IMG/VR virus record: IMGVR_UViG_3300005253_000595 | Coordinates: 1-47,349 of that record | Reading direction: 5' to 3' (one strand) | Source of the DNA: a virus | DNA length: 47,349 nucleotides | Shown: positions 4,308 to 29,901 of the stretch, one piece after another | Numbering within the stretch: position 1 is the stretch's first letter | How the letters are laid out: every line of letters begins with the position of its first letter | The notes under the pieces: generated by a model | Databases searched by the model: none | Told to the model about the DNA's origin: nothing | Seen by the model: the letters and a program-made list of their open reading frames with translations, nothing else | Program-made: the position numbers and the translations under genes

Positions 4308-6259
4308 TTTAAAAACCTTTTATTTTTCCAACCTTCAACCTTTAATGGACAGTCACCCATCCATGCTGGTTTTTGAGATAATATTGTTTCATAGTGTTTT
4401 ACTGATTTTTGATTAACTGGCACTTCTGTAAGTATCTCATCATGCACAGTCAACAGAGTTTTGTAACCGAACTCCTCACCAGTGAACATTCCATACACCA
4501 CCACATCTCTAGCTGTCCCCTGAACAATGTTCTCAACAAACACACCGCCCCATGTGCGCTGACGTTCATAACAACCACGTTGAGACACCCAGCCCATGTG
4601 AGTTATTACGTGTCCTTCAAGTCTTGGTTGATGATATGCAAGCATACGCTTGGATGGTAGCTGAATGTAAAGGAAGTCTTGGTGTGTAAATATATTCAAC
4701 ACGCCAACCTTGACAACCTTCTTTGTTCTGATAGCATCAACAACAGCATTTTCTATAATCTTCCAATAAGCTACAACTGCTGGATGCTCATTTCTATATG
4801 TTCTGACAGCCCTTTTAGCAATTTCAATCGGAACAGTTACGTTGTGTTTCCTGCATGTTGCTATGAACCTCTCACCATTAAGTCCCATACCAAAACCACA
4901 ACCCAATTCTGTTTGCTTCCCAACAAACCTCTGCATCTTATTTACACTCTCTAATTCAACACCAAAAATCTTAGTAGCCATAATCTTGTAAGGGTCTTTG
5001 TCTTGTCTGTAATAATCAAGTCCTTTTTTATCACCAGCAAACCAAAGGAGTATTCTCGCTTCAATTGCGTTCCAGTCAGCCCCAATAAACTCATGTCCCT
5101 CTCTCGCTATCAACATACCTCTGATACATTGTGATAGTGTTTGTAGCACGTTTGGAAACATAGATTGAAATGAACCTAAATTATCATTTCTAAGTAATTC
5201 TATTGCACTATCTATGTTTTCTTGTGTCACTCTCGGAAGGTTATGAAGCTGCGCCCTCTGTCCTGTCCACCTTCCAGTTGCAGCACCATGATAAATTAGG
5301 GCATCATAAAGAACACCATCATCACCTGTAGACTCTTTGAACGCTGTATATTTTGCTATACTGGTTTTACCTAACTCCTGTCTTATCTTCAACACTTTTC
5401 TAATCTTGTCTGGAAGCTCTCCATTCAATGCTTCGTTAACTGTCTCTTTTGTAAAGTCTTTAAGCTCTACTCCCTCACCCTTTATCCACGTTAACACTCG
5501 CTGTCTCCTAGATAGCCCATCAAGGAATCCATCTGATAACTTAACGACTTTTTGTTCCTCTAGTTTTTTGTATTCCTCAACTAATTTAATAGCAGAGTCT
5601 ACTGCTTGCGTATCAATTCTAATGCCTCTCAAGTTAACCTCTTGGTCAAGGTGAAACACCTTTTGCTCACTAGGTGAAAGATCACGCATGGTATTATCAG
5701 CAATACGTTCAATTTCAACATCAGCTATACAATATTTATGTAACTTGGCAAAGTCTTCTGGTGATTCGTGCCATAGAGCAAAGACAGTACCATTTTCAAC
5801 TTCGTTCTTAGTTGGCTTTCTAGGCTTACACATCTTCAACATTACAGCATAGCCTTCTTTGTCTTTTTTAACTGGTAAATTCAAGGCGACTGCAAGAGCA
5901 TCAAGTCCTCTTGGCAAAGCTAACGCTGAAGCCATAGCTGCTGTACAACGCCACATGTGTTTGGGTATCACAGGATAACCAAATCTCGGGACAAGTATGT
6001 TATGCCAAATAAGGTACTCGAACATAGCACTGTGAGCAATGTAAAGTGGTCTTTTATCAATATACCTATCAAAAGCCATTTCCTGTTGTTGTAAATAAGG
6101 AATACATAATTGTTCTTTGGTCATCAGCTTAACAGGTTCATTATTAATTCCATAAGCCATACACTGAACCTCAGTAGATGGGTGACGTGAGTAAACCCAC
6201 GCCCCCACCTTCTTGATGTTAAGTTCTGACCTTGTTTCAAAATCTAAATGGATTTTCAT
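4304..6259 (-). CDS. polA-like: Family A DNA polymerase with 3'-5' exonuclease domain
   Basis: 651 residues. Exonuclease motifs: LDFETRS with Asp6 and Glu8; AHSAMFEYLIW near 75-85; YCIADVEIE with Asp180. Polymerase motif A is GADWNAIEARILLWFAGD with Asp395; motif B is KMQRFVGKQTELGCGFGMGL near 441-460; motif C is LLTVHDEIL with His606, Asp607 and Glu608. It synthesises phage DNA in the cytoplasm. No 5'-3' exonuclease domain is present, as usual for phage polymerases. It sits next to the DUF2815, DUF2800, VRR-NUC and SNF2 genes, a well-known phage replication set. Confidence 0.95.
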   Translation of the reverse strand: MKIHLDFETRSELNIKKVGAWVYSRHPSTEVQCMAYGINNEPVKLMTKEQLCIPYLQQQEMAFDRYIDKRPLYIAHSAMFEYLIWHNILVPRFGYPVIPKHMWRCTAAMASALALPRGLDALAVALNLPVKKDKEGYAVMLKMCKPRKPTKNEVENGTVFALWHESPEDFAKLHKYCIADVEIERIADNTMRDLSPSEQKVFHLDQEVNLRGIRIDTQAVDSAIKLVEEYKKLEEQKVVKLSDGFLDGLSRRQRVLTWIKGEGVELKDFTKETVNEALNGELPDKIRKVLKIRQELGKTSIAKYTAFKESTGDDGVLYDALIYHGAATGRWTGQRAQLHNLPRVTQENIDSAIELLRNDNLGSFQSMFPNVLQTLSQCIRGMLIAREGHEFIGADWNAIEARILLWFAGDKKGLDYYRQDKDPYKIMATKIFGVELESVNKMQRFVGKQTELGCGFGMGLNGERFIATCRKHNVTVPIEIAKRAVRTYRNEHPAVVAYWKIIENAVVDAIRTKKVVKVGVLNIFTHQDFLYIQLPSKRMLAYHQPRLEGHVITHMGWVSQRGCYERQRTWGGVFVENIVQGTARDVVVYGMFTGEEFGYKTLLTVHDEILTEVPVNQKSVKHYETILSQKPAWMGDCPLKVEGWKNKRFLK

Positions 6260-16419: not shown

Positions 16420-16719
16420 TCAATTAATTTCGTTAATAGAAACAGTTGCAGTCGTGACCAGCACTGACTCTTGATTGTTTTTGTTTTTAATGTCACCAGC
16501 TATTGTCAGGACTTTATACTTATCACCAATTTTGCCTATAATCTCTATGACTTGAGAGTTTTCTATTTTACTTTTCCATCCACCAGCAGTATAAATGACA
16601 GTAAAGCCCCCATCTGGAAATTGCCTGTAAATAATTTCTTCAATGACCTTAATATTATCCTTGTCCTTAGTGTAAATCCTGTAGACTACTGCCTTTTCTG
16701 TTTTATGCTTAGACATCAT
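16420..16719 (-). CDS. Hypothetical protein (99 aa)
   Basis: Strand-rich protein (AVVYRIYTKDKDNIKVIEE, then GGFTVIYTAGGWKSKIENSQ, then EIIGKIGDKYKVLTIAGDI). Start overlaps the upstream stop and follows AGAAAGGAGAA. No family recognised. Confidence 0.5.
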   Translation of the reverse strand: MMSKHKTEKAVVYRIYTKDKDNIKVIEEIIYRQFPDGGFTVIYTAGGWKSKIENSQVIEIIGKIGDKYKVLTIAGDIKNKNNQESVLVTTATVSINEIN

Positions 16720-17003
16720 TTTCTCCTTTCTAAAAAAAGGTCTTCTAATATTTCATAAATTTCATACAGCTTAATATCATCTTCTTTTTTAAATCCATGT
16801 TTAATAACATCATCAATGTTATGTTCACCTATAAATTTATACAATAAATTAGCCTCGTCTTCTGATAATGTTAAAACTATACTTTCCTCTATATTTCGTC
16901 TATCACCTTTCTTCTTAGCTAAGTTACCTTCAAGTTTTGCTATCTCTCCAGAAAGTTTTTTAAATTGCACAGCATTGGGTTTTAATTCTGCTCTTGCCAT
17001 CAT
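16716..17003 (-). CDS. Hypothetical protein (95 aa)
   Basis: N-terminal helix with coiled-coil character (AVQFKKLSGEIAKLEGNLAK) and a C-terminal helical half rich in Glu and Leu. Start ATGATGG after AAAAAGGAGAAA, inside the end of the frameshifted zinc-ribbon gene. Unknown function. Confidence 0.5.
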   Translation of the reverse strand: MMARAELKPNAVQFKKLSGEIAKLEGNLAKKKGDRRNIEESIVLTLSEDEANLLYKFIGEHNIDDVIKHGFKKEDDIKLYEIYEILEDLFLERRK

Positions 17004-17144
17004 TTTCTCCTTTTTAAAGATTGTTTTCTACCTTTAATCTTGGTAGGTTTGATTATATTTTTGTTTACAAAAAAGCATACCTCACAGTCATCTGGATATA
17101 AAGTCTCATGAAAACATTTACTACACTTCGCTTTTTTTTATCAT
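17000..17144 (-). pseudogene. Zinc-ribbon microprotein with frameshift in an A8 run
   Basis: ATG at 17144 after AAGGAGAATA, directly behind the 187-nt structured RNA. The frame ATG ATA AAA AAA AGC stops after 7 codons. Removing one A from the 8-A run gives a 47-residue protein with AKCSKCFHE, DDCEVCFFV and a basic tail ending just at the next gene's start. Possible causes are a homopolymer sequencing error, a true frameshift mutation, or slippage on the A run. Confidence 0.5.
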
Positions 17145-17156
17145 TATTCTCCTTTC

Positions 17157-17343
17157 AGAGTGTAATTGCTGGGTGAGACTGGACTTCTAACTTTTCATTC
17201 CCATTACTTCTGGTGAAAGTCATTACCAGCAATGGTAGCTAACCATTTTGTAAGTGATACTTGACTCTGGTAGCTTATCCCCTTTGCTATTTTCTCACTT
17301 GTCTAAGTCGTTAACTTAATACCTCACCCAGCAATTACACTCT
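17157..17343 (-). ncRNA. 187-nt structured RNA closed by a 21-bp perfect stem
   Basis: The ends 17157-17177 and 17323-17343 are perfect inverted repeats of 21 bases. Inside are further helices: 17304-17308 with 17314-17318, 17252-17257 with 17295-17300, 17231-17236 with 17242-17247, and 17210-17214 with 17225-17229. No protein-coding frame of note fills it. A sigma70-like promoter lies just upstream, with its expected start within about 2 bases of the stem. A ribosome-binding site follows immediately after the 3' arm. It may be a stabilising 5' leader, a riboregulator or an independent small RNA. It matches no class that I recognise. Confidence 0.75.
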
Positions 17344-17347
17344 TTTA

Positions 17348-17375
17348 AGTATACCACACATTCAAGAAAAAACAA
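17348..17375 (-). promoter_or_regulatory. sigma70-like promoter for the structured RNA
   Basis: TTGTTT (17370-17375), a 16-bp spacer ending GTGTGG, and TATACT (17348-17353), read on the minus strand. The -10 box and spacer length are identical to the three other promoters found in this window. Transcription should start near 17341. Confidence 0.7.
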
Positions 17376-21111: not shown

Positions 21112-21139
21112 AGTATATCACACTTTTTTAGTTTGTCAA
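21112..21139 (-). promoter_or_regulatory. Main leftward promoter, sigma70-like
   Basis: On the minus strand TTGACA (21134-21139), a 16-bp spacer and TATACT (21112-21117). A near-perfect consensus, placing the start near 21105 and giving a ~40-base leader before the first early gene. Confidence 0.85.
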
Positions 21140-21938: not shown

Positions 21939-21966
21939 TTGACAAATAGGAAATGTATGGTATACT
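21939..21966 (+). promoter_or_regulatory. Main rightward promoter, sigma70-like
   Basis: TTGACA (21939-21944), 16-bp spacer ending GTATGG, and TATACT (21961-21966). The 19 bases TTTTCTCAAAAATCTTGAC (21925-21943) are repeated exactly at the promoter at 29425. The start is expected at about 21973. Confidence 0.85.
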
Positions 21967-21972
21967 TAAAGC

Positions 21973-22053
21973 GTGTGGATGATTGTCCTATGAAATTTCT
22001 AAACAGGAAATATAACAAATAGGAAATAGGATTCCTGAACAAATCATCCACAC
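21973..22053 (+). ncRNA. Structured 5' leader of the rightward transcript
   Basis: GTGTGGATGATT (21973-21984) pairs perfectly with AATCATCCACAC (22042-22053). Inside, CAGGAA (22004-22009) pairs with TTCCTG (22032-22037). The outer stem begins at the predicted first transcribed base. A 13-base word (ACAAATAGGAAAT) is found both in the promoter spacer and at 22015-22027. It has the same design as the RNA at 17157-17343: promoter, then a transcript whose 5' end is locked in a long stem, then a ribosome-binding site. Confidence 0.7.
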
Positions 22054-29424: not shown

Positions 29425-29452
29425 TTGACTATTTCAGGAAGTATGGTATACT
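29425..29452 (+). promoter_or_regulatory. Internal promoter for the HNH gene and capsid region
   Basis: TTGACT (29425-29430), 16-bp spacer and TATACT (29447-29452). Shares an exact 19-base upstream block (29411-29429) and GTATGGTATACT with the main rightward promoter. Predicted start near 29459, one or two bases before the HNH start codon. Confidence 0.8.
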
Positions 29453-29460
29453 ATTAGCAT

Positions 29461-29901
29461 ATGGAAAAAGAATGTACAAAGTGCGGTGAGGTGAAGGCTT
29501 TGGATAATTTTGGGTTTCATAAAGATTGTAAAGATAATTTAAAATCTACTTGTAGACAATGTAATAGAGAAGTTGCAAGAGAACATAAGTTAAAATATCC
29601 AAATAGATTTCTTTTAACTAAAGCAAAGGGTAGGGCAAAAAAGTTTGGTATCCCTTTTGATTTGACAAAAGAAGACATTATTGTACCTGATATTTGTCCA
29701 GTTTTTAATAAGCCACTTGTTTTTGGTTATGGTAATGGAAGAAATCCTATGTCACCTTCACTTGATAGAATTGATAATACAAAAGGTTATGTAAAAGGAA
29801 ATGTAATAGTAGTTTCATGGCGTGCAAATCATTTAAAGAATGATGCAACAATTGATGAACTTGAAACTTTGACAAATTTTTATAAAACGATTTTAAAATA
29901 A
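29461..29901 (+). CDS. HNH homing endonuclease with N-terminal zinc finger
   Basis: 146 residues. CTKCGE and CRQC (Cys5, Cys8, Cys31, Cys34) make the zinc finger, and DICPVFNKPLVFG leads to the nuclease core SPSLDRIDNTKGYVKGN, then VIVVSWRANHLKND. Homologous along its whole length to the gene at 34680. No ribosome-binding site precedes the ATG; the mRNA from the promoter at 29425 would be nearly leaderless. It lies between scaffold and capsid genes, a usual place for homing genes. Confidence 0.8.
   Translation: MEKECTKCGEVKALDNFGFHKDCKDNLKSTCRQCNREVAREHKLKYPNRFLLTKAKGRAKKFGIPFDLTKEDIIVPDICPVFNKPLVFGYGNGRNPMSPSLDRIDNTKGYVKGNVIVVSWRANHLKNDATIDELETLTNFYKTILK

Follow-up and report, generated by a model that had tools for sequence, protein, structure and literature searches.

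We report a 187-nt element at positions 17157-17343 (minus strand) of a phage genome, closed by a perfect 21-bp stem that runs from the predicted start of an internal leftward transcript to the edge of a ribosome-binding site. Our preferred reading, to which we give a rough probability of 0.45, is that the element is a stem-closed mRNA leader, which would seal the 5′ end of its message beside the ribosome-binding site and probably stabilizes it. The stem, its length, its place relative to the consensus promoter and ribosome-binding site, and its recurrence at the late promoter of the same phage and in a distant relative (L021) are established directly. The features discussed below are collected in Table 1.

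Table 1 Features of the two leaders of the phage and of their surroundings.
Feature	Position	Strand	Basis or remark
Promoter TTGTTT-16-TATACT, extended -10, TGGTATACT	17348..17375	-	Consensus only
Stem 5′ arm, AGAGTGTAATTGCTGGGTGAG	17323..17343	-	Inverted-repeat comparison
Interior, 145 nt	17178..17322	-	Non-coding, because stops occur in all six frames; hairpins no better than shuffles
Stem 3′ arm, CTCACCCAGCAATTACACTCT	17157..17177	-	Inverted-repeat comparison
Shine-Dalgarno sequence AAAGGAG	17149..17155	-	Two bases past the 3′ arm, one base between
Short frame MIKKSEV-stop from the ATG behind the Shine-Dalgarno sequence	17121..17144	-	Reading frame
CxxC...CxxC zinc-ribbon-like frame, 45 codons, without own start	17000..17137	-	Reading frame
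Late promoter TTGACA-16-TATACT, extended -10, same promoter family	21939..21966	+	Consensus
Second leader, 5′ arm, GTGTGGATGATT	21973..21984	+	Begins exactly at predicted +1
Second leader, 3′ arm, AATCATCCACAC	22042..22053	+	27 nt ahead of ATG 22081

The window, i.e., the whole stretch analyzed, is the single virus record IMGVR_UViG_3300005253_000595 (47,349 bases, G+C 0.36). It represents an unclassified phage with a podovirus-like gene set: the rightward genes include those for the large terminase, a head-tail adaptor (portal-type), the major head protein and tail proteins, and the leftward genes comprise a replication set of primase-helicase, DNA polymerase, ssDNA-binding protein and nuclease. 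The nearest annotated phage is the uncultured MW202485, with 44% identity in the terminase and 53% in the capsid protein. Metagenomic relatives reach 57-58% in the terminase and 77% in the capsid protein, and the relative L021 shows 36% identity in the primase-helicase and 43% in the terminase. A close relative is absent from the collections searched, and the early region around the element is common to none of the relatives compared. The record is a metagenome assembly, in which small assembly errors are possible; such an error is an unlikely source of a 21-bp repeat that ends at both +1 and the Shine-Dalgarno sequence. A comparison of the PADLOC defense library with the proteins near the element returned no matches.

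On the minus strand, bases 17343-17323 form the exact reverse complement of bases 17177-17157, and the preliminary description had both the coordinates and the departure from chance right. The longest inverted repeat in 40 Markov-shuffled windows measured 12-15 bp, and the 21-bp stem is the sole inverted repeat in the window of at least 14 bp with arms no more than 500 nt apart. It is far above chance expectation. A perfect terminal inverted repeat around a non-coding interior would also fit a small MITE-like mobile element, inserted between promoter and ribosome-binding site. We consider this extremely improbable, as the ends of the element coincide with +1 and the Shine-Dalgarno sequence, the flanks carry no target-site duplication, and it occurs as a single copy in the window and the collections searched.

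The promoter upstream of the stem combines an extended -10 (TGG ahead of TATACT) with a poor -35 (TTGTTT). Consensus spacing, from which all +1 positions given here are derived, places the predicted +1 at A 17341, seven bases past the -10 and at the third base of the stem, in line with the earlier claim that transcription starts at the first bases of the stem. The ribosome-binding site claimed directly behind the 3′ arm was likewise recovered (AAAGGAG at 17155-17149, followed by an ATG at 17144). This site lies outside the closed stem and is partly open in the computed fold. The predicted pairing probability in the transcript is 0.57 at base 1 and 0.97-1.0 from base 2 over most of the stem, so that, with +1 taken from the consensus, the first transcribed bases lie within the predicted duplex, as is expected of a leader that seals its 5′ end. 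The element is situated 3.4 kb upstream of the primase gene and is read in the same direction.

Two further observations concern the immediate surroundings. Downstream, the zinc-ribbon-like frame (KKAKCSKC...CEVC) joins the ATG at 17144 only if one A is skipped in a run of eight (17132-17139); the break may reflect slippage during transcription, a broken gene or an error of the assembly. Upstream, a G+C-poor terminator-like hairpin at 17400-17378 on the minus strand (GTTAAAAAT/ATTTTTAAC plus a T tract) overlaps with its T tract the -35 of the promoter.

Thermodynamic folding bears out a structured element as a whole, with -67.2 kcal/mol and z = -6.4 for the 187 nt. This significance rests wholly on the closing stem. 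When the 145-nt interior was folded alone, it scored z = -1.2, and 20 of 200 shuffled sequences were as stable. The four additional short helices of the preliminary description do appear in the minimum-energy fold, yet they receive no support above chance in these calculations; such inner helices, and with them a many-helix RNA, may exist. The earlier notion of a discrete 187-nt RNA found no confirmation either: a terminator was sought behind the 3′ arm and none is present, and the element therefore reads as an mRNA leader. The statement that no known RNA class is recognizable stands, since at the gathering score Rfam 15 matched nothing in the window except two tRNAs and, for the element at E 10, returned chance matches with nothing credible among them.

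These results bear on the idea that the function resides in the interior, be it as a regulatory leader (riboswitch or protein-binding operator) or as a processed small RNA. The size of the element and its closed multi-branched fold would suit such a role, as would several possible 5-6-bp contacts within the interior, which would give pseudoknots or alternative pairings. Overall we regard it as unlikely, given the insignificant interior fold and Rfam matches at E 10 no better than chance. Moreover, the Shine-Dalgarno sequence is outside the structure, so that there is no evident switch, no homologue was found in the collections searched, and no terminator would yield a free RNA. Of the three roles offered in the preliminary description, 5′-end protection of the mRNA is favored by the present results, with the predicted +1 inside the stem and the late and L021 leaders (see below) built alike. 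For a ligand- or protein-sensing leader there is no specific evidence, and a free processed small RNA, for which 21 bp would suit RNase III, is a possibility without positive evidence.

Homologues were sought at several levels. Comparison of the DNA with phages and plasmids gave short chance pieces only, and no homologue was found among viral contigs or bacterial and archaeal genomes. Five viral contigs containing a 16-mer of one arm were dismissed as chance matches, because the second arm is absent from them, and the full 21-mer occurs in none of 85,000 bacterial/archaeal genomes. When a covariance model was derived from this one sequence, it matched none of 60 loci and nothing in 22 related records scanned in full. 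Neither the downstream protein (16716-17003) nor the zinc-ribbon frame retrieved relatives when used as search handles, and the gene behind the L021 leader retrieved only itself. Scanning for the promoter sequence ATGTNTGGTATACTTAAA yielded seven contigs, in none of which a terminal stem exceeds 7 bp. Other long inverted repeats in four relatives (L010, L011, L102 and L103) looked like repeats of iteron type or a hairpin that buries a ribosome-binding site, not like promoter leaders. In L010, a long near-perfect hairpin at 5506-5660 buries both the ribosome-binding site and the start codon of a leftward gene (5054-5542); it looks as though an inverted copy of the beginning of this gene had been placed ahead of the original.

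Across promoters of the same type it is the layout of the leader that recurs, while its sequence does not. The late promoter of the window, which has AATGTNTGGTATACTTAAA in common with the promoter of the element and heads a late operon of roughly 24 kb, is followed by a leader with a perfect 12-bp stem that closes upstream of the ribosome-binding site (z = -3.9). Similarity between the two leaders of the window is limited to the promoter and the first transcribed bases, and their sizes differ (187 versus ~80 nt). In L021, a leftward promoter ~2.2 kb upstream of the primase gene carries a perfect 13-bp stem at +1. The arms of the three leaders show no similarity to one another. Of 20 strong promoters in the phage group, 3 have a perfect stem of at least 12 bp that starts at the predicted +1; when random positions of these genomes are taken instead, the share is 0.1%. 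Leaving out the 17157-17343 element, two of the remaining 19 promoters qualify, which corresponds to a binomial probability of about 2e-4; because the test was devised after the late leader had been seen, these probabilities are in that respect post hoc. Among control promoters of the form TTGACAAATAG-N-TGNTATACT in other viral contigs, 0 of 85 showed a stem of at least 10 bp, and a mean 5′-end pairing probability of at least 0.9 was reached by 0 of 84 control promoters versus two of the strong promoters of the window. The architecture is confined to particular promoters: a +1 stem is lacking at the two remaining strong promoters of the window (21139 minus and 29425 plus), and the nearest relatives (L010, L011 and L013) have none at their late promoter.

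Some details of these loci are worth recording. At 29425-29461 (plus strand), a small CxxC-motif gene has its own same-family promoter (TTGACT-16-TATACT) and almost no leader; its CxxC motif resembles that of other late-operon genes, which are of the HNH/endonuclease VII type. The L021 leader (L021:4842-4971, minus strand) contains two perfect interleaved inverted repeats of 13 bp and 14 bp in the order A-B-A′-B′, whose 3′ arms abut in front of the ribosome-binding site. This arrangement may represent a pseudoknot of very large size or a switch between two states, and in the computed fold the 5′ stem loses out to the 14-bp repeat interleaved with it. In the same record, low-complexity frames (MALAMAMA... 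and SGSGYGDG..., in different frames) lie beside two paralogous genes at L021:3618-4437, which suggests a long tandem repeat.

Structured leaders head both the leftward internal transcript and the ~24-kb late operon, and a processive antitermination function could be considered, in which the structured beginning of a long operon's transcript modifies RNA polymerase in the manner of HK022 putL/putR. In HK022, putL is located immediately downstream of its promoter (PMC9378689). We hold this explanation to be very unlikely for the present element: putL and putR are alike, whereas the leaders of the window are dissimilar beyond promoter and first bases and differ in length, and the interior fold is not significant.

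Another possibility is that the element is a processing leader, i.e., that host RNase III cuts the duplex, frees the interior and trims the mRNA just before the ribosome-binding site. Transcripts reading through from the promoter at 21139 would then be cut at the same place. The 21-bp stem provides the near-perfect duplex of ~20 bp or more that the enzyme calls for, in uninterrupted Watson-Crick pairs close to the ribosome-binding site, and the element lies within a leftward gene array that is also read by this stronger upstream promoter. On the other hand, the stems of the other two leaders (12-13 bp) are short for RNase III, and cleavage does not need a stem that begins at +1. We judge RNase III processing to be rather unlikely.

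That the arms are unrelated while the architecture is kept suggests that the paired 5′ end as such is what matters. An added 5′ hairpin stabilizes bla mRNA, and a base-paired 5′ end impedes RppH (reviewed in PMC3997798). Together with this precedent, the paired first bases of three leaders that close upstream of a ribosome-binding site argue for the stabilizing leader. We infer that the promoter is active and that in vivo the stem forms and stabilizes the mRNA. According to this model, the internal leftward promoter of the early/replication operon would start an mRNA of which the element is the 5′ untranslated leader. Transcription would begin inside the stem. Once made, the 3′ arm would capture the 5′ end by pairing with it over ~19-21 bp, and this duplex would stop a single base short of the Shine-Dalgarno sequence. 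The interior would be looped out and the ribosome-binding site left open next to the sealed end. The duplex would shield both the leader and its 5′ triphosphate from 5′-end-dependent decay, presumably by RppH/RNase E in a proteobacterial host and by RNase J elsewhere. Protection at a distance is more pronounced in Bacillus than in E. coli (PMC3997798).

Several points count against the stabilizing leader. A 10-bp hairpin would suffice for protection, which leaves the 145-nt interior unaccounted for, and a perfect 21-bp duplex could itself invite RNase III. The -35 is poor, the +1 stem is absent at the other window promoters and at the late promoters of the nearest relatives, and there are no compensatory changes to weigh because no homologue was found. 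A broader variant, which we think quite improbable, is that this is a group-specific kind of leader, repeatedly evolved, in which +1 pairs over a long range just before the ribosome-binding site and thereby controls timing or lifetime of the message, the interior being a domain of a new RNA class. If the stabilizing reading is true, phages repeatedly build leaders with their first and last bases paired across 80-190 nt, at chosen promoters only, and a simple rule (a stem from +1 to the ribosome-binding site) would find phage leaders that control stability without sequence homology. If it is wrong, the stem still stands out as strong and unusual in a phage that has no close relative in the collections searched.

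Among known systems, a retron ncRNA (msr-msd with paired a1/a2 ends) resembles the element as a long RNA with pairing ends followed by a gene. It needs an adjacent reverse transcriptase gene, however, and the window record has none; PF00078 is absent from it, whereas control genomes do match, and a retron was rejected. RNase III sites precede phage genes in the lambda N leader and in T7 early mRNAs. These sites share with the element a long duplex directly before the ribosome-binding site of an early transcript, but the stem described here begins at +1, and the stems of the sister leaders are too short to suit the enzyme well. Likewise, HK022 put RNA is structured and directly follows a phage promoter where an operon begins. 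There, putL and putR are mutually similar ~70-nt RNAs of two adjacent stem-loops (PMC9378689), in contrast to the 187-nt closed multi-branch of the element. A similar arrangement of paired end and ribosome-binding site is found in bacterial and phage mRNAs protected by a 5′ hairpin, in which the 5′ end is paired at +1 or not more than one or two bases from it, ahead of an open ribosome-binding site. The ompA leader and the T7 gene 10 leader are of this kind. Another example is bla mRNA with an added 5′ hairpin (PMC3997798). Their hairpin is local and short, whereas in the element the pairing partner lies 145 nt off and the whole leader is looped out.
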